Source: Capnocytophaga periodontitidis (GTDB lineage: Bacteria > Bacteroidota > Bacteroidia > Flavobacteriales > Flavobacteriaceae). Taken from it: a DNA stretch of 64,000 nt. Below, piece after piece: positions 46,155-56,889 of the stretch. Both the position numbers and the translations under genes were made by a program. The stretch covers positions 62,001 through 126,000 of the forward strand of contig NZ_JAEFDB010000001.1 of the NCBI RefSeq assembly GCF_016126015.1, written 5' to 3'. Position 1 is the first letter of the stretch; each line of letters begins with the position of its first letter. The notes below the pieces were generated by a model. The model was not told the DNA's origin. It ran no database searches and saw only the letters and a program-made list of their open reading frames with translations.

Positions 46155-46979
46155 ATGGATAAATATCTTTTAGAACGTTACCCGCTTGTGTGGAATACTC
46201 GCTTGCTCCCAATGTTAGCTCTTGCGAGCTGTGGACATATCTTCTTTATCTTATTAGGTTGGGCAGCAAAAAATGAAGACTTCAATTACTATGCTTTTAA
46301 TGCTATAATGGCAGATTTTATAGGGTTTCCATTATTGTTACATCTTGTTATCTCTATATTGTTGTTAGTAGTTTGGTTGCTGTATCTCAGTAGAAACAAC
46401 GCTTTCAAGCATTTCTATCCTTTCCCTGAAGAAAAACTCTTCTTGCAATGGATACTTTATTTTCTTATCGTCTTTGCCTCAGTGTCCTTTGTACTGCCTT
46501 ATGCAATTGTTAAAGGCTTAGGGAAGTATCCTTTTAGCAATACTTCTGATGTGATATACCTATTAAATTTCCTTTTGAGTATTGCTTTTGTTATAGCGAC
46601 ACTCGTGTACTGTGTGCGTATTACCAATGTGCAAATTCTGCTACTTACTATTGTTTTTATAGGGATTCTTTTAATTATATTATCTTTTATAGGCAATAAA
46701 TTGTTGTTTTTATTGGTTTATGCTGCACTTGTATATGTTTCTGTGAGTAAGGAAATTCACATACCAAAGAAGTTTATAGGCATTGTGGTAAATACAGTGC
46801 TTCTTTTTTCGCTTATGGTAATGTACTATATAGTAGACAGTATTATGGAGAATATGTTATTAGATAGGTCTCGTGATGAGCTTTCTAACAAAAATTTTTG
46901 TGTATCCTTCTGTTTAACTTTGGTCTTTATAGGCTGCTACACAAGGGTAATACAACGATGGAAAGCAATAGCGGACTGA
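46155..46979 (+). CDS. Polytopic membrane protein of unknown function
   Basis: About 274 residues from the ATG at 46155; a TTG in the repeat words before it (46140) is rejected. Eight or so hydrophobic segments are visible (for example LLPMLALASCGHIFFILLGW, LLLHLVISILLLVVWLLYL, ILYFLIVFASVSFVLPYAIV, LLLTIVFIGILLIILSFI). No enzymatic or transport motif. The final segment ends with a short basic tail. Flanking repeats AAATTGACAAATTG lie between promoter and start. I do not recognise a family. Confidence 0.7.
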   Translation: MDKYLLERYPLVWNTRLLPMLALASCGHIFFILLGWAAKNEDFNYYAFNAIMADFIGFPLLLHLVISILLLVVWLLYLSRNNAFKHFYPFPEEKLFLQWILYFLIVFASVSFVLPYAIVKGLGKYPFSNTSDVIYLLNFLLSIAFVIATLVYCVRITNVQILLLTIVFIGILLIILSFIGNKLLFLLVYAALVYVSVSKEIHIPKKFIGIVVNTVLLFSLMVMYYIVDSIMENMLLDRSRDELSNKNFCVSFCLTLVFIGCYTRVIQRWKAIAD

Positions 46980-46995
46980 AGTAATACTTTTCTAT

Positions 46996-47032
46996 AATTT
47001 TAATCACTGACATATTGTCAGTGATTAAAATT
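46996..47032 (+). repeat. 37-base perfect inverted repeat upstream of clpB
   Basis: Two 17-base arms (46996-47012 and 47016-47032) with a TAT spacer. It contains CTGACA-N3-TGTCAG, the same core that stands before the clpB and dnaK promoters. It may be both the terminator of the preceding gene and a second operator copy; there is no strong T run after it. Confidence 0.7.
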
Positions 47033-47115
47033 AGATTTAAAAAACTGATAATGATTTCTTTAATTTGAAATACCTTTAAAAAATCAAGAAATAACCCTGT
47101 CAAAAAGTTTTAAAA

Positions 47116-47157
47116 ACTGTCATTTTGTCAGTTAAATCTATTTGGCATAACTCTTGT
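47116..47157 (+). promoter_or_regulatory. clpB promoter module: CTGTCA-N3-TGTCAG plus TTGGCA-N8-TTG
   Basis: An inverted repeat at 47117-47131 lies 12 bases before GG of TTGGCATAACTCTTG (47143-47157, positions approximate to 1). The GG-to-TTG layout matches a sigma-54 -24/-12 element, except the last C of TTGC is T. The same layout occurs before dnaK. No TAnnTTTG box is present for either gene. The ATG is 47206, about 45 bases on. Confidence 0.55.
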
Positions 47158-47205
47158 CTTTCTCTTGCTGAAAATGTTTAACCCAAATTGTTAATTCAAA
47201 GATAT

Positions 47206-49809
47206 ATGAATTTTAATAACTTTACTATCAAAGCGCAAGAAGCGGTACAAACCGCTCAGCAAATTGCCCAGCAGTACGGGCACCAGGAATTGCAAAACGA
47301 ACATTTCTTCAAAGCTATTGAACAAGTAGATGAGAACGTATTGCCTTTCCTATTCAAAAAATTGAATATCAACCGCGAGCAATTAAATAAACAATTAGAA
47401 ACTGCTCTACAAGGCTTTGCCAAAGTAAGCGGTGGCGATATGGGGCTCTCACGCGAAGCAAACTCTATGCTGAACGAAGCTGTCAATATCGCTAAAAAAT
47501 GGAACGACGAGTATGTATCCTTAGAACACCTTATATTGGCTATCTTCAAATCAAACAGTAAAATCGCTCAAGCTCTCAAAAACCAAGGCGTGAGTGAAAA
47601 AGAGTTGGAGAAAGCTATTCAAGAATTGCGCAAAGGCGAACGCGTAACTTCGGCTTCGGCTGAAGATACTTACAATTCGCTCAACAAATACGCCAAAAAC
47701 CTCAATCAGTTAGCTGATAGTGGGAAACTCGACCCTGTGATTGGTCGTGATGAGGAAATACGTCGTGTATTGCAAATTCTTTCACGTCGTACCAAGAACA
47801 ACCCTATGTTGGTGGGTGAACCTGGGGTAGGTAAAACGGCTATAGCCGAAGGCTTAGCGCACCGTATTGTGAAAGGTGACGTACCTGAAAACCTAAAAGA
47901 CAAGGTGATTTACTCACTCGATATGGGGGCTCTTATCGCAGGTGCAAAGTACAAAGGTGAGTTTGAAGAACGACTCAAATCGGTAGTGAAAGAGGTAACC
48001 TCTTCCGATGGTAATATTATTCTGTTTATAGACGAAATCCACACCCTTGTAGGAGCGGGTGGGGGAGAAGGTGCGATGGACGCTGCCAATATCCTAAAAC
48101 CTGCCTTAGCTCGTGGTGAACTCCGTGCCATTGGTGCCACTACTCTCGATGAGTACCAAAAGTACTTTGAGAAAGACAAAGCTCTCGAACGTCGTTTTCA
48201 AAAGGTAATGGTAGACGAACCTGATACCGAAAGTGCTATCTCAATATTGCGTGGTATCAAAGAAAAGTACGAAACTCACCACAAAGTGCGTATCAAAGAC
48301 GAAGCGATTATCGCGGCAGTAGAACTTTCTGAACGCTATATCACTAATCGTTTCTTACCCGATAAGGCAATAGACCTAATGGACGAGGCAGCTGCTAAGC
48401 TCCGTATGGAAATCAATTCTAAACCCGAAGAGTTAGACGTACTCGACCGCAAGATAATGCAACTCGAAATAGAAATTGAGGCTATCAAACGTGAAAAAGA
48501 CGAAGATAAGCTCAAAATGCTATATGTAGATTTGGCAAATCTTAAAGAAGAACGTAACGCCATCAATGCTAAATGGCAGAGTGAAAAAAGCGTAATTGAT
48601 GAAGTGCAAACCACTAAGGAAGCTATTGAGAAATACCGTTTGGAAGCCGATAGAGCCGAACGCGAAGGCGACTACGGTAAAGTAGCCGAATTGCGTTATG
48701 GCAAAATCAAAGAAGCGGAAGACAAATTAGCGGAATTACAAAAGAATTTAGATAGCAAATCTCACGAAAATGCTCTTGTAAAAGAAGAAGTAACAGCTGA
48801 AGATATTGCTGAAGTAGTAGCAAAATGGACAGGGATACCTGTAGCTAAAATGTTACAAGGCGAACGCGAAAAACTCTTGAACTTAGAGAAAGAATTGCAC
48901 CGCCGTGTAGTAGGTCAAGAAGAAGCCATCGAGGCAGTTTCCGATGCCATACGCCGTAGTCGTGCTGGTTTGCAAGACCCACGTCGTCCTATAGGTTCTT
49001 TCCTTTTCTTAGGAACTACGGGGGTAGGTAAAACCGAACTTGCCAAAGCCTTAGCCGAGTATCTATTCGACGATGAAAATGCAATGACGCGTATAGATAT
49101 GAGTGAATACCAAGAGAAACACGCTGTTAGCCGATTGGTAGGTGCACCTCCAGGATATGTGGGTTATGACGAAGGTGGTCAGCTTACTGAAGCTGTGCGT
49201 CGTCGTCCGTATTCTGTAATCCTTTTGGATGAAATTGAAAAAGCTCACCCCGATACTTTCAACATCTTGTTGCAAGTGCTTGACGAAGGTCGTCTTACTG
49301 ACAACAAAGGTCGTACCGCCGACTTTAAGAATACGATTATCATTATGACCTCCAATATGGGTAGCCATATCATTCAGGAAACTTTTGAGAAGTATCCTAA
49401 GGATACCGAGCGCGCTATCGACGAGTCACGTGACGAGGTGTTACAACTCCTCAAACAAACTGTACGTCCTGAGTTTTTGAACCGTATAGACGACATTATA
49501 ATGTTCACACCGCTCAACGCCAAAGATATCCGTAGTATTGTGCGTTTGCAATTGCAATCAGTGTTCCGTATGGTTGCCAAAGAAGGCATCTTGCTCGATG
49601 CTACCGATGAGGCTATTGATTACTTAGCACAAAAAGGATTCGACCCTCAGTTTGGTGCTCGTCCAGTGAAACGTATCATTCAGAAAGAAGTGCTCAATAA
49701 ACTCTCTAAAGAAATATTGAGCGGTACGGTACAACGTGATGCAGTCATCTTATTAGATGCTTTTGATAACCAATTGGTATTTAGAAATCAAAAATCAGAG
49801 AATAATTAA
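47206..49809 (+). CDS. clpB: Heat-shock disaggregase ClpB
   Basis: 867 residues from the ATG at 47206 ([15 protein letters not shown]...), the standard ClpB length. The order is an N-terminal Clp domain, AAA-1 with Walker [13 protein letters not shown] and Walker [10 protein letters not shown], the ClpB-specific coiled-coil M-domain (about 400-530) and AAA-2 with [23 protein letters not shown], and C-terminal substrate and sensor motifs (FGARPVKR). It pulls proteins out of aggregates with DnaK. In the same neighbourhood dnaK follows 200 bases later with its own copy of the promoter module. A longer TTG start (47188) is not needed. Confidence 0.97.
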
Positions 49810-49825
49810 CAAGGAATTAGGGAAT

Positions 49826-49870
49826 TTAGGAGTTAGTTGTCAGTCATTAGTAACAATGGCTAACTCCTAA
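49826..49870 (+). terminator. Long inverted repeat after clpB
   Basis: TTAGGAGTTAG (49826-49836) pairs with CTAACTCCTAA (49860-49870), loop 23 bases, A-rich flank. The arms are built of TTAG words. It is a terminator-like element without a clear T run. Confidence 0.45.
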
Positions 49871-49892
49871 AACCTATCTCCAACCTTTAACT

Positions 49893-49934
49893 CTGACAAT
49901 TTGTCAGTTTTTAGTCCTTTGGCACAATCATTGA
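49893..49934 (+). promoter_or_regulatory. dnaK promoter module: CTGACA-N3-TGTCAG plus TTGGCAC-N7-TTG
   Basis: A perfect inverted repeat 49893-49907 (CTGACA ATT TGTCAG) lies 13 bases before TTGGCACAATCATTG (GG at 49921-49922, TTG at 49931-49933). The spacing is within one base of clpB. The GG-N8-TTG element resembles a sigma-54 promoter with A instead of the last C. The ATG is 50006. Confidence 0.6.
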
Positions 49935-49948
49935 CTATTACTGATTAC

Positions 49949-49965
49949 GTAAGCGTAAGGCTTAC
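49949..49965 (+). promoter_or_regulatory. Hairpin at the 5-prime end of the dnaK leader
   Basis: GTAAGC pairs with GCTTAC around a GTAAG loop, about 40 bases before the ATG and just after the expected transcript start. It could stabilise or sense temperature in the leader; this is speculative. Confidence 0.4.
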
Positions 49966-49996
49966 AAAAAATAATGTTGAACTTAAAAAACGATAA

Positions 49997-51937
<1,941 letters not shown>

Positions 51938-52258: not shown

Positions 52259-54097
52259 ATGTGGACAGATAATATTACAGATAAAGACTTTTTAGGTTTC
52301 GATGTACATGCCAACTTGATAAAAGAACTCATAAAAGACGAAAAAATGTTACCTCTTACTATTGGTCTTTTTGGAGATTGGGGAAGCGGAAAATCAAGTA
52401 TTTTAGAAATTATTAAAAAGGAAGTAGAAAAAGAACCTAATACAGTATGCCTCTACTTCAATGGATGGGTTTTTGAAGGATATGATGATGCAAAAGCTGC
52501 TTTGCTCGAGACAATATTGAAAGAATTTGAAGACAGCAAAAAGTTTGGTGAAGAAATAAAAGATGATATAAAAAAACTATCGAAATCTGTTAATTGGATG
52601 AGAGTTATTGGATTTGGAATAAAAAATATTGGATTACCCGCTGCCGCTGCTTATATGACGGGAGGTTTAAGCATTATTACTGAACTAGTAAACAGTTTAA
52701 AAGAAGCGGCAAAAAAACCAAAAGAATTAATAGAAAGAATACAAAAACATGATACGGAAAGTTTTCTGAAACAATTCGTAAAGGAACCTGAGAATACTGT
52801 TATGTTCGATGTAGTACGCAAATTTCGAGATGATTTTGAGAAATTATTAGAAAAATCAAAAATTGAGAAACTTGTTATCATTATTGACGACCTCGACAGA
52901 TGTCTTCCAGATCGAATTATTGATAATTTAGAAGCTATAAAATTATTTCTCAATGTAAAGAATACGGCATTTGTAATCGGAGCAGATCCAAGGATTGTTC
53001 GACATGCAATTGAATACAGATATAAGGATAAGATTATTGATGCAAATGCTGAAAATGCAAATGATAGAATTGTAAATGATTACCTTGAAAAGTTAATTCA
53101 AATACCTTACAATCTTCCGAAGCTATCAGATTCTGAAGTAGAAACATATATCACTCTACTTTTTTGCGAGAATGATTTGTCCCCAGAGGATTTTAATAAA
53201 GTGTTGGAAGCGTTTAAGAAATTTAGAGAAGAAGAAAGATATTCAGTTTTCGATTTTACTAAAGTTAAAGAAGCTGTAGGCGATATACTTAAAACAGAAA
53301 AACTGGAGCAAAATGTTTCTCTAATAGCAAAGCTATCTCCTATAATTTCAGAAAGTTTATATGGAAATCCTCGTCAGATTAAACGTTTCTTGAACACATT
53401 CATGCTAAGAAAGAAATTGGCTACAATTGCTAATATTAAAGATTTCAGAGATGATATATTAGCAAAACTAATGATTTTGGAATACGCAGAGCCAAAACTT
53501 TTTGAAATATTATACAATTGGCAAATATCCAATCAAGGGGTTGCTACTCAATTAGAAAAACTGGAAGAAATTTGCTGTAAGAAAAGCGATGTACAATTAA
53601 CTTTCACAGACGATTTAAAAGAATGGAACAAACCCAAAATTGTTAATTGGATGAGTAGTGAACCATTGCTTTCTAAAATTGACCTTCGGGACTATTATTG
53701 GATTTCAAGAGATAAATTGTCATCCATGCAAAGTAACCTATTAGTTCCGCCAGTGGTTAAATCATTGATGACTAAGTTAGAACCAGATGGTATGGCAGAA
53801 AAATTAACGACTAAAATCCTTAATGAAGAACTAAAGGTTTTGAACGGAAATTATCAAAGTGCGTTCTTCAGTCTGTTGAAACAACGAATAATTACAGAAC
53901 CTGATAAAAACAGGTATTACGACCTATTTAACATCGCATTAAGAGCGGGATTTGACTGTAAATCTGTTTATGTTGAAGCTCTTACAAGTGTAAGAAGGAA
54001 ATTACCCCCTCCGGTAATTGAATCTTTAAAGGAGTTTACAGGAACTCATTCAGAATTCAACCAATTTGTAAAAATTAAACAAAAAGGAAAAATATAA
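52259..54097 (+). CDS. qatA: Qat defence system KAP-family NTPase QatA
   Basis: A 612-residue KAP P-loop NTPase. Walker A is GLFGDWGSGKSSIL (about 36-49), followed by VCLYFNGWVFEGYDD. Walker B is LVIIIDDLDRCLPDR (about 206-220). A helical insert with two hydrophobic stretches (GIKNIGLPAAAAYMTGGLSII) sits between, typical of KAP proteins that touch membranes. It is the first gene of a four-gene set whose order and product types (KAP NTPase, small unknown, QueC-like, TatD-like) match QatABCD, an anti-phage system. The mechanism is not known. The next gene starts at its stop (TAATG). Confidence 0.9.
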   Translation: MWTDNITDKDFLGFDVHANLIKELIKDEKMLPLTIGLFGDWGSGKSSILEIIKKEVEKEPNTVCLYFNGWVFEGYDDAKAALLETILKEFEDSKKFGEEIKDDIKKLSKSVNWMRVIGFGIKNIGLPAAAAYMTGGLSIITELVNSLKEAAKKPKELIERIQKHDTESFLKQFVKEPENTVMFDVVRKFRDDFEKLLEKSKIEKLVIIIDDLDRCLPDRIIDNLEAIKLFLNVKNTAFVIGADPRIVRHAIEYRYKDKIIDANAENANDRIVNDYLEKLIQIPYNLPKLSDSEVETYITLLFCENDLSPEDFNKVLEAFKKFREEERYSVFDFTKVKEAVGDILKTEKLEQNVSLIAKLSPIISESLYGNPRQIKRFLNTFMLRKKLATIANIKDFRDDILAKLMILEYAEPKLFEILYNWQISNQGVATQLEKLEEICCKKSDVQLTFTDDLKEWNKPKIVNWMSSEPLLSKIDLRDYYWISRDKLSSMQSNLLVPPVVKSLMTKLEPDGMAEKLTTKILNEELKVLNGNYQSAFFSLLKQRIITEPDKNRYYDLFNIALRAGFDCKSVYVEALTSVRRKLPPPVIESLKEFTGTHSEFNQFVKIKQKGKI

Positions 54098-54837
54098 TGG
54101 GAACATCGAAATCTTATGAAGGGGCTAAAGGTCATCCCAATTGGTCACAGCTAAGCGGTAGTGTAACGAGAGCATGCGAAACAGGAACTATTTCCATTAA
54201 TAGTTTAAGTAATGTTACTTCTAATTTTGCGAAGTTTTTAGGAGGCTCAAATTTTGGAGGGAGAGGAAAATCCAAAATCGGAGGTCGAGCGGGTATAAGA
54301 ACAGCACAAAAATTAGGAGGCTTTTTAAGCGACGTAAAAACTAAAGGATTTAGGCCTGCTCTATTAGGTATTGGTTTTGATGTAACTGATAGCACTAAGC
54401 CAAATGAAGCTATAAATTATTTGTTGGAGTATTGTGCTGGCGTTGCATCCTCGTTAGATGAAACTGCTGCTAAAGCTGCCGAAAGACAATTGCTTGAAGA
54501 AATAGGTAGCGAAGCAAAAGATTTCGAAGAATTAGCGAAGAATTTTGAGGAAAAGATAGAAGAATATGGTATCGAGGAACTTTTGATAAAGTACTATGCT
54601 TATTATATTTATGAACATCTGTCTATTGATTTTTACGAGAAACTCATTGAAAAAAAAGGAAAAGCAGCAACATCAAACTTTTACATTCAGCTAAAAAAAT
54701 TTCTTGTTGAAAAGGTGAAGAATATTGCCCGAAAACGAGATGTTAGTAAGATTAGTTGGGCTGATAAAGAAGGTGATGATCTGGTAAAGAATATTTTTGA
54801 AGATACACTTAAAGCATTTGAGAATTATGAAAGTTAA
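54097..54837 (+). CDS. qatB: Qat defence system protein QatB
   Basis: A 246-residue protein. The N-terminus MGTSKSYEGAKGHPNWSQLSG is the trademark of QatB. A Gly/Ser/basic region follows (SNFGGRGKSKIGGRAGIRTAQ), then a helical, acidic C-terminal half. QatB has no known fold or enzymatic motif. It overlaps qatA by one base and qatC by 11 bases. Its function is known only as a required part of Qat defence; it may be the protein that QatC modifies. Confidence 0.85.
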   Translation: MGTSKSYEGAKGHPNWSQLSGSVTRACETGTISINSLSNVTSNFAKFLGGSNFGGRGKSKIGGRAGIRTAQKLGGFLSDVKTKGFRPALLGIGFDVTDSTKPNEAINYLLEYCAGVASSLDETAAKAAERQLLEEIGSEAKDFEELAKNFEEKIEEYGIEELLIKYYAYYIYEHLSIDFYEKLIEKKGKAATSNFYIQLKKFLVEKVKNIARKRDVSKISWADKEGDDLVKNIFEDTLKAFENYES

Positions 54838-56188
54838 CATTACTATACCAAAAGCTCGAAAAGGCAAGTTTTCGGAAATAAAACTTGGATATAAAAATGA
54901 AGAGAATGAAGACATTCAAGTTCTATTGAATGTTGATTTTCAAAATCTATATGAATTTACGAGGAAGAAAAACGGAATCGGATTTGATGTTTTTTTAATA
55001 GGCTGTTTTGTTTATGGAATTGATATTTTATTGCCAAGAAAAGATTTTTCAACAAATGGTTGGTCAAGAGATATTGAAGTTGAGTTTCCCGTTGAATCGC
55101 CCGAAGTATTTGAAAACGTGAAAACAGAATTGGAACATTTGCTTTCATTTTTAACAGGTGATGAATGGAATGTCTCATTTATAAAGAGAGAAGTCACATT
55201 ATTGTATGAGTTTAAACAGCGTGCAAAAGTATTTACAGACAAATACCGACAATCTTTTAAAAAAGTAAGTTTATTTTCTGGAGGTCTTGATTCCTTAATT
55301 GGTGTAATAGACCAATTAGCAAAGTCCAAGGATAGGATGGTACTTGTTTCTCATTATGATGCTGCATTTAAAGGTGCCAAATCCGACCAAGATAAAATTC
55401 ACAAAATCTTGTCGAGAAAATATTCTCATTATCATTTTATTCAAACCCGAGTGGATTTGTCAAATTCTGATGTAAATGGAAATAAAAGAGAGAATGAGCC
55501 ATCTTTAAGAAGTCGTTCTTTTTTGTTTTTATGTCAAGCCATTTTTGTTGCCCATTCAATTGGTAATGGAACTGAGGTTTTAATCCCAGAGAATGGAACA
55601 ATCTCTTTAAATCATCCTTTAACTCCTTCAAGACGGAGCAGTTGCAGTACAAGAACGGCGCATCCATATTATATAGCGAAAGTTATTGATTTTATTTCCA
55701 AATTAGGGCTAAATCATCTTATAAGAAATGAATATGAAATGAAAACAAAAGGTGAAATGTTAGAAAATTGCCATGACAAAGACATGCTAATTGCTACATA
55801 TCAATATTCTTGCTCTTGCGCTAAAAGAGGCCATAAGGTATATTGGGATGTGAGAACAGCACCCCAATGTGGAATTTGCATGCCATGTATATACAGAAGA
55901 GTTTCTTTGCATCAGATAGGACTGGATAATGAGATTGTAGGTACGGATCTTTTTAATCCTCAAAAGTATCTTTTGGAGAAACTACCTGATATCCCTGCTT
56001 TTCTTGATTATATGAAGCATTCTCTCTCAATTGAGGATATTGAAAAGAATCTTTTAATAAATGGAACTTTACCATTAGATAAAGTGGAGCAATACGCAAA
56101 TGTGGTTTATAGAACCCGAAAACAAATTCTAGACTGGATTAAGGAAAAAGGAAGTATTGAGGTTAAAAATAAATTAGGTATTCAATGA
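54827..56188 (+). CDS. qatC: Qat defence system QueC-like protein QatC
   Basis: About 453 residues from the ATG at 54827 (MKVNITIPKARKG...); an ATG at 54797 is further inside qatB and less likely. The QueC-like domain has the PP-loop SGGLDSLIGV (about 150) and a zinc cluster CGICMPC near the C-terminal half. QueC makes the nitrile precursor of queuosine. In Qat-type systems the fold is recruited for defence, perhaps to modify a protein or nucleic acid. An added N-terminal region of about 140 residues is not part of QueC. It overlaps qatD by four bases. Confidence 0.9.
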   Translation: MKVNITIPKARKGKFSEIKLGYKNEENEDIQVLLNVDFQNLYEFTRKKNGIGFDVFLIGCFVYGIDILLPRKDFSTNGWSRDIEVEFPVESPEVFENVKTELEHLLSFLTGDEWNVSFIKREVTLLYEFKQRAKVFTDKYRQSFKKVSLFSGGLDSLIGVIDQLAKSKDRMVLVSHYDAAFKGAKSDQDKIHKILSRKYSHYHFIQTRVDLSNSDVNGNKRENEPSLRSRSFLFLCQAIFVAHSIGNGTEVLIPENGTISLNHPLTPSRRSSCSTRTAHPYYIAKVIDFISKLGLNHLIRNEYEMKTKGEMLENCHDKDMLIATYQYSCSCAKRGHKVYWDVRTAPQCGICMPCIYRRVSLHQIGLDNEIVGTDLFNPQKYLLEKLPDIPAFLDYMKHSLSIEDIEKNLLINGTLPLDKVEQYANVVYRTRKQILDWIKEKGSIEVKNKLGIQ

Positions 56189-56889
56189 TAGATGTTCACT
56201 GCCATTTTGACATGGCAAAAAATCCTGAAAAATATATTTCGGAAAATGAGAAAAGGCAAATTATAACGATTGGAATGACAAATTTGCCAAGTCATTTTCA
56301 AATGGGTGTAAATCATGTAAGACAGTATAGGTATATTCGGCTTGCATTAGGATTGCATCCATTGAGAGCAACAGAACATGAGAAAGAGTACTCGAAGTTC
56401 AAACAATATCTTGATATGACATCATATATAGGAGAAGTTGGATTAGATTTCTCAAGAGAAGGATTTGCAACAAAGGAAATTCAGATTAAAAGTTTTGAGT
56501 TTGTTTTAGACTGTGTAAAATCAAAAAATAAGATTTTAAGCTTACACTCCCGACGAGCAGAGAAAGAGACATTAGAAATGCTTATCAAGAATAGAATTAG
56601 AAATGCAATTTTCCACTGGTATTCTGGACCTATTAATATCATAGAAAGAATTGTAGAGTATGGTTATTTCTTCTCCATTAATTCTGCGATGTCTTCATCT
56701 GGAAATGGGAGAAAAATAATATCTAAGATTCCTAAGGAGCTGATACTCACAGAAACAGATTTCCCTTATACTAATGGAAATTTAATAGATACGTACTCTT
56801 ATCTATCTGATACATGGGGAGAATCAAAGGATTTTGTAAAAAGAACAATAAGGCAGAACTTTTTGCGTATCATTCAAAATATTAAATGA
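56185..56889 (+). CDS. qatD: Qat defence system TatD-like nuclease QatD
   Basis: A 234-residue TatD-family metal-dependent DNase. Metal ligands are seen as DVHCHFD (H5, H7), GEVGLDF (Glu), LHSRR (His), and TETDFPY (Asp). FHWYSGP carries a further His. TatD proteins cut DNA from the 3-prime end and act in repair. In QatABCD the nuclease is the likely effector. The start overlaps the qatC stop (ATGA), so all four genes form one operon. No own terminator is obvious. Confidence 0.9.
   Translation: MIDVHCHFDMAKNPEKYISENEKRQIITIGMTNLPSHFQMGVNHVRQYRYIRLALGLHPLRATEHEKEYSKFKQYLDMTSYIGEVGLDFSREGFATKEIQIKSFEFVLDCVKSKNKILSLHSRRAEKETLEMLIKNRIRNAIFHWYSGPINIIERIVEYGYFFSINSAMSSSGNGRKIISKIPKELILTETDFPYTNGNLIDTYSYLSDTWGESKDFVKRTIRQNFLRIIQNIK

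Follow-up and report, generated by a model that had tools for sequence, protein, structure and literature searches.

A putative sigma-54 chaperone regulon with a helically phased palindrome at clpB and dnaK of Capnocytophaga periodontitidis

How are the chaperone genes clpB and dnaK of Capnocytophaga periodontitidis switched on? In a stretch of 64,000 nucleotides (assembly GCF_016126015.1, contig NZ_JAEFDB010000001.1, positions 62,001 to 126,000; hereafter the window), a CTGWCA-N3-TGTCAG palindrome stands ahead of each of the two genes, followed after a gap of 10 or 11 bases by TTGGCAYAAnnnTTG, which has the form of a sigma-54-type -24/-12 element. A preliminary description of this locus had proposed a dedicated chaperone regulon, with the repeat bound by either a repressor or a sigma-54-type activator. 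The results presented here favour, with a probability of about 0.78, a sigma-54 chaperone regulon in which an AAA+/Fis protein of one recurrent type would act on the palindrome, itself phased with the promoter. The features concerned are the following.

47117 to 47131, plus strand: clpB palindrome CTGTCA-TTT-TGTCAG (CTGTCATTTTGTCAG), a putative activator site with 11/12 positions of CTGACA-N3-TGTCAG, found at the same place in relatives.
47142 to 47156, plus strand: clpB sigma-54-type -24/-12 element TTGGCATAACTCTTG, identified from the sequence, with the spacing rule checked unforced.
47206 to 49809, plus strand: clpB, 867 amino acids from the ATG at 47206, Pfam-confirmed.
49893 to 49907, plus strand: dnaK palindrome CTGACA-ATT-TGTCAG (CTGACAATTTGTCAG), a putative activator site with 12/12 positions.
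49919 to 49933, plus strand: dnaK sigma-54-type -24/-12 element TTGGCACAATCATTG, identified from the sequence.
50006 to 51937, plus strand: dnaK, 643 amino acids, Pfam-confirmed.

Both repeats and both -24/-12 elements lie where the preliminary description had placed them, while the gaps between them, given there as 12 and 13 bases, are in fact 10 and 11 intervening bases. It had also noted that the two genes lack a TAnnTTTG box, and indeed no plus-strand match occurs in 46980-47205 or 49810-50005 (the window as a whole has 111 matches against 85 expected). Its GG-N10-GC element has to be relaxed to GG-N10-G, since the base following the -12 G is T at clpB and A at dnaK. The repeat pattern CTGWCANNNTGTCAG gave 5 strand-matches at 3 places in the window, compared to 0.01 expected, and the element pattern TTGGCAYAANNNTTG gave 2 matches compared to 0.02 expected; in the entire 3.23-Mb assembly, CTGWCANNNTGTCAG occurs at only 3 places, all within the window region. 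The looser TGGCA-N6-TTG was not enriched by itself (3 found, 2.2 expected in the window), so the evidence lies in the combination of elements and in its recurrence. From these elements, transcription is predicted to start at approximately 47169 for clpB and 49946 for dnaK.

Recurrence was assessed in 60 genomes, the present one and 59 relatives, by reading up to 400 base pairs (bp) upstream of dnaK (located in 58/60), clpB (50/60, with 49 start regions used, as the clpB of G057 had no start in its match) and groES (59/60). For htpG and grpE, which were matched in 55 and 59 genomes, respectively, 30 loci each were taken, and 29 of each were usable after one htpG locus without an identifiable start and one grpE locus with a truncated gene had been left out. 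A palindrome matching at least 10/12 positions was present within 400 bp upstream in 44/58 dnaK, 26/49 clpB and 42/59 groES regions. For the spacing analysis, promoters were dropped if their -24/-12 score was below 9.5, if they lay over 160 bp from the gene, or if they were too close to the beginning of the sequence read (2/58 dnaK, 8/49 clpB and 8/59 groES by these limits; 1/29 htpG and 6/29 grpE by score). Among the promoters kept, a palindrome of at least 9/12 stood 9-11 bp from the -24 in 37/56 dnaK, 27/41 clpB, 31/51 groES, 22/28 htpG and 22/23 grpE cases (22/29 of the usable loci for each of the last two genes), compared to means of 0.17-0.36 and maxima of 8-26 per gene for 179 rearranged half-sites at the same spacing. 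All five chaperone genes thus have a TGACA-N3-TGTCA palindrome upstream of GG-N10-G, with highly constant surroundings at many dnaK genes, e.g. TTGGCAYAATCATTGAC. Pooling 160 distinct sites at 10 bp gave the consensus TGaCAtttTGTCAgtttttt-N3-atTGGCAtaatttTTGac, in which the promoter-near half is the better conserved. In C. periodontitidis itself the module is also found at groES and, with 9-11/12 matches, at grpE, htpG and secA (the name SecA comes from an NCBIfam match of a partial protein, which scores below the full-length cut-off). The preliminary description had named a failure to recur at chaperone genes of related genomes as one outcome that would speak against it; the module recurs at dnaK, clpB, groES, grpE and htpG.

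Several lines of evidence point to sigma-54 as the factor that reads the downstream element. Among 163 distinct palindromes of at least 10/12, TGG stood at the expected place in 109, and in 95% of these the G of GG-N10-G was present although its position had not been forced. The base after the -12 G was A in 59%, C in 28% and T in 11% of the 109 sites, a departure from GG-N10-GC which, with the other sigma-54 features in place, is probably a variant of the phylum. A -24/-12 score of at least 9 was reached in 57/58 dnaK, 47/49 clpB and 56/59 groES regions; shuffled regions also reached it often (means of 13.5, 7.9 and 12.3, respectively), so the score is weak evidence when taken by itself, and it is the constant place of the element that counts. 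RpoN is encoded in 60/60 genomes, the present one included. For Flavobacterium psychrophilum, the main text of PMC9723704 reports mapped 5' ends and assigns groESL, lon, dnaK, grpE-dnaJ, htpG, skp and clpB to a -24/-12 motif, and that of PMC12316311 describes GroEL, GroES, IbpA, GrpE, DnaJ and DnaK as enriched for sigma-54 promoters in Flavobacteriia and Bacteroidia, most strongly in Flavobacteriia. The sigma-54 part of the proposal is therefore already known. What holds of the dedicated regulon first suggested is the shared module, a sigma-54-type element with a close regulator site that recurs in relatives; its sigma-54 component is not novel (PMC9723704, PMC12316311).

The distance between palindrome and promoter was counted from palindromes of at least 9/12 to the first T of TTGGCA and weighted by genus, which gave peaks at 10-11 (47), 20-22 (10), 30-32 (9), 40-42 (17), 51-53 (3) and 60-63 bp (9), with little elsewhere (1 at 2, 1 at 5, 2 at 9, 0.06 at 56 and 1 at 66 bp). 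Rearranged half-sites averaged at most 0.32 at any distance, and single ones reached up to 11.6 at 10 bp; control values as high as this may reflect a likeness of some rearranged half-sites to the true sequence. For the five genes, the 66 distinct gene-by-genus-by-distance values beyond 12 bp gave a free-fitted period of 10.5 bp with R 0.80, where the 99.9% point of R in random uniform draws is 0.377, and the distal sites were offset from the phase of the proximal site by only -0.28 bp. Some far groES palindromes, at approximately 30-42 bp, appear by eye to overlap the hairpin of the preceding gene in some genera, from which part of the groES phasing could stem; the phasing persists when groES is left out (R 0.80, n=40). 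A second set of 59 named groES promoters, 58 of them outside the first set, yielded a period of 10.25 bp (R 0.74, n=49). With a list of in-phase distances set beforehand, which lacked 40, 60 and 61, the genus-weighted count beyond 11 bp was 41.8 in phase and 7.1 out of phase, compared to 0.70 and 1.14 for the controls (largest control 18.6 in phase). Shared ancestry inflates these figures, yet the turn that is occupied differs between genera while the phase stays the same. Most numerous are the sites that end 10-11 bp from the -24, with their centre at about -45 by our estimate; the others lie one to five turns farther away. Spacing by whole turns suggests an activator that touches the polymerase from one face of the DNA, and between the repressor and the sigma-54 activator that had both been offered earlier, it favours the activator.

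Which protein might occupy the palindrome? The genome encodes three strong PF00158 proteins, here called L008, L009 and L010. L009 (L009:787-2040) is an AAA+-Fis protein with no recognised N-terminal or receiver domain; its PF00158 match at residues 13-180, its HTH_8 match at 374-414 and its GAFTGA loop are those of a sigma-54 enhancer-binding protein. L010 is a receiver-AAA+-Fis protein. In L008 (C52), a receiver-AAA+ protein, no Fis DNA-binding domain was recognised; many relatives have matches in open frames of similar length, approximately 390 amino acids. An L009-type match of at least 56% identity was found in 60/60 genomes (in two pieces in G012), and the protein studied here is 99% identical to its counterpart in G014. 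In 30/60 genomes and 29/37 genera the gene stands within 6 kb ahead of groES, in the same orientation. In F. psychrophilum, the sigma-54-dependent regulator THC0290_0733 and LptE (0732) likewise have locus tags close to that of groES (0729), according to the main text of PMC9723704. Named activator loci, taken as the best 80 of the matches listed (one labelled Rhizobium, the rest Bacteroidota), had groES within the stretch in 59/80 cases; all 59 showed a -24/-12 score of at least 9.5, and 36 a proximal palindrome. The 21 of these best 80 without groES include Capnocytophaga, Chryseobacterium, Phocaeicola, Dysgonomonas, Paludibacter and Tannerella.

The recognition helix S-x-RTLYRK of the L009-type proteins is invariant in 21 members, Bacteroidales included, and GAFTGA is present in 24 of 30 orthologs, with GSFTHA in G013 and five uninformative rows that matched elsewhere. 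Residues 279-301 or thereabouts, between the AAA+ lid and the Fis domain and outside the Pfam matches, are conserved from Flavobacteriia to Bacteroidales; within the stretch E282-K301, the residues E282, R283, Y287, L290, M293, D296, L300 and K301 are invariant in the 21 members. As a separate observation, G013 (L060) has its GSFTHA in place of GAFTGA although RpoN is kept, and its clpB element reads TTTGGAA where others have TTTGGCA.

A genome of only 345 kb (G051) provides a reduced case. It has kept rpoN; the activator search yielded a single match there, of the L009 type, and groES follows 343 bp after this activator gene. Its groES carries ATGACATTATGTCAT, a 10/12 palindrome 21 bp before the -24 of a -24/-12 element, dnaK has a -24/-12-like element, and grpE has a 9/12 palindrome with a weak element that lacks one G. 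The Walczuchella paper (PMC3971599) calls the retention of RpoN by tiny flavobacterial symbionts unusual and suggests nitrogen use; Sulcia lacks rpoN in that paper's table, so retention is not universal. Control of chaperones offers an alternative to nitrogen control for the retention of RpoN in some tiny symbionts.

The module, its spacing and recurrence, and the presence of RpoN and an L009-type protein are read directly from the sequences, and a mechanism may be proposed on this basis. RNA polymerase with sigma-54 would transcribe clpB and dnaK from their -24/-12 elements, and the palindrome would be the site of a sigma-54 activator, most likely the L009 protein, whose binding is suggested by its linkage to groES, its universality and the phasing of the sites. 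Adjacent to the polymerase and bound to the same helix face, with the site centred at about -45, the activator would open the promoter by ATP hydrolysis. The same protein would drive groES, grpE, htpG and probably secA, forming a chaperone regulon in which sigma-54 would fill the role that sigma-32 or HrcA has elsewhere. Protein damage or heat may be the trigger. As no sensor domain was recognised, control in trans, as is known for PspF, appears most likely, perhaps exerted by chaperones, and the stretch E282-K301 is a candidate contact for it.

A number of observations weigh against this proposal. In the genus of the window the activator gene stands beside groES in 0/20 genomes (one of them without a groES match), while 29/36 other genera show the arrangement, and among the Bacteroidales-labelled loci of the best 80, some of them on short contigs, groES was present in only 4/16 and palindromes were weak. 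The activator gene of G012 (C1:395133-396376) is split over two frames though that genome has seven exact palindromes; the split may be a genuine break or a sequencing error. The GAFTGA loop of the G013 ortholog is altered to GSFTHA. The activator's own promoter has no palindrome (own best 7/12; 78 named loci at background level), and the genome holds two other sigma-54 activators. In the 345-kb genome, clpB has neither a palindrome nor a -24/-12 element. The exact CTGACA-N3-TGTCAG occurs in only 12/60 genomes, and in part away from chaperones; among 15 loci with it that were examined, 5 had no -24/-12 within 75 bp and 1 was out of phase, and in C. periodontitidis a phased element accompanies only 3/10 places with TGWCA-N3-TGTCA (clpB, dnaK and secA). 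In 12/58 dnaK, 14/49 clpB and 6/59 groES regions, the best element had no palindrome of at least 9/12 at a distance of 60 bp or less. Out-of-phase sites exist at distances of 2, 5, 18, 19, 56, 66, 72 and 74 bp, and in the named groES set at 23, 26, 46, 49, 50 and 74 bp. All counts come from sequences that share ancestry and are not independent. The usual sigma-54 enhancer site lies 80-150 bp upstream, a distance that is typical rather than strictly defining, and the centre estimated here, near -45, is much nearer to the promoter. Finally, in the main text of PMC9723704, F. psychrophilum clpB falls in co-expression cluster B415 and dnaK, groES, grpE, htpG and lon in B254. The odds given here, for the proposal and for its wider form below, have been lowered because linkage and palindromes are thin in Bacteroidales and because exact palindromes occur away from chaperones.

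Other explanations have to be set against the same data. A separate repressor on the palindrome, acting by HrcA-like logic with sigma-54 initiation beneath it, would suit the general experience that single promoter-proximal palindromes are typical repressor operators, and the protein proposed to bind the palindrome is as yet a candidate. Phasing out to approximately 63 bp, in register with the proximal site, is however unexpected for a steric repressor; HrcA exceeded its curated cut-off in 0/60 genomes (one sub-threshold match, in G034), in a search that did not extend to CtsR, HspR and sigma-32; and the 345-kb genome keeps its groES palindrome together with a single sigma-54 activator, a count that covers sigma-54 activators only. 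A repressor is accordingly considered improbable. The activator could also be one of the two-component types, L008 or L010, or several activators could share the site, as the three strong PF00158 proteins of the genome would allow; for F. psychrophilum, the main text of PMC9723704 likewise reports three, and mainly two co-expression clusters. Against this, L008 has no recognised Fis DNA-binding domain, and the activator search found a single match in G051 and a single one in G047, both belonging to the L009 type, the only type for which groES linkage was examined. It seems unlikely that another activator is responsible. The remaining alternative, that the -24/-12-like element is a promoter variant read by a sigma factor other than sigma-54, be it the main one or another, draws on the prevalence of A over C after the -12 G, but is countered by the unforced GG-N10-G in 95% of sites, by RpoN in every genome and by the assignment of the mapped groES, dnaK, grpE, htpG and clpB starts to the -24/-12 motif in the main text of PMC9723704; it is very improbable.

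If a sigma-54 regulon under an L009-type activator is the better account of these promoters, a wider form of it may be considered: a heat-shock master switch of novel design common to the phylum, in which the sensor-less activator, often encoded beside groES, would govern dnaK, grpE, clpB, htpG, groES and secA by way of a helix-phased site close to the promoter, and free chaperone would hold it inactive through the stretch between the AAA+ and Fis domains. This extension is tentative, and the odds are rather against it; if true, it would explain why a 345-kb genome has rpoN and a single sigma-54 activator.

Some candidates were set aside. The exact palindrome proved too strict and not specific as a genome-wide marker, and self-control of the activator gene was rejected as no palindrome rose above background. 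A third palindrome copy at 47007-47021, missed in the preliminary description, lies upstream of clpB, past the end of the preceding gene at 46979, within the following feature.

46995 to 47033, no strand assigned: 18-bp perfect inverted repeat centred on the third palindrome copy, hairpin of -21.3 kcal/mol, z -7.2.

The hairpin is probably a terminator, and the third copy is probably not an activator site, being 120 bases before the clpB -24, out of helical phase and at the hairpin centre. That the chaperone palindrome forms the exact centre of this hairpin raises the possibility that one sequence serves as both terminator and operator.

Elsewhere, in G017 (L019, C1:1461108), an exact palindrome lies 10 bp before TTGGCACAGCCTTTG, ahead of an open reading frame of 110 residues with no recognised family, possibly a further member of the regulon. 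In G012, 41 bp separate one of the seven exact palindromes from a downstream TTGGCACAGTTTTTG, and the gene that follows encodes a small protein that by eye resembles a heavy-metal-domain protein. Downstream of dnaK in the window, 52259-56889 holds Qat anti-phage genes identified with PADLOC, namely QatA (1e-119), QatB (weak, 1e-6) and QatC (1e-93), followed by a TatD-like protein at 56185-56889, named by eye.

Control of heat shock in Bacteroidota appears unsettled, as sigma-54 has been reported and no activator was found named for these genes; the present results put forward an activator candidate, together with its site and a rule for the spacing. The palindrome, its phasing and the activator assignment were not found in the open-access literature, in searches that left the palindrome letters unused as a query and supplements outside their scope. 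The sigma-54 promoters of F. psychrophilum (type SM4; PMC9723704) are alike in covering groESL, dnaK, grpE-dnaJ, htpG and clpB, as well as lon and skp, with a -24/-12 element, and three activators are predicted there, with THC0290_0733 near groES as is the L009 type in relatives. They differ in that the THC0290_0733 promoter is of another type (SM5), and the main text of PMC9723704 uses none of the terms palindrom, inverted repeat or TGTCA; it suggests that clusters might match distinct activators and assigns none. The computation of PMC12316311 reaches the same sigma-54-chaperone conclusion, and its main text contains neither inverted repeat, upstream activat nor UAS; in the passages concerned, no activator is assigned to these genes.

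Compared with heat-shock control by sigma-32 and by HrcA with its operator CIRCE, the target genes overlap, while promoter and operator sequences differ here and the HrcA gene is missing at the cut-off used (0/60). PspF is the regulator of the phage-shock genes, and PspA keeps it in check. Like PspF-type activators, the L009 protein consists of an AAA+ domain followed by a Fis DNA-binding domain, with no receiver. It scored 278.3 bits with the NCBIfam PspF model, which requires 443.55, and is thus not a PspF equivalog by that model. Promoter-proximal, helically phased sites of this kind would widen what is expected of sigma-54 activators, and it is in such a putative site adjoining the promoter, together with a long linker holding a conserved stretch and the linkage to groES, that the L009 type differs from PspF.

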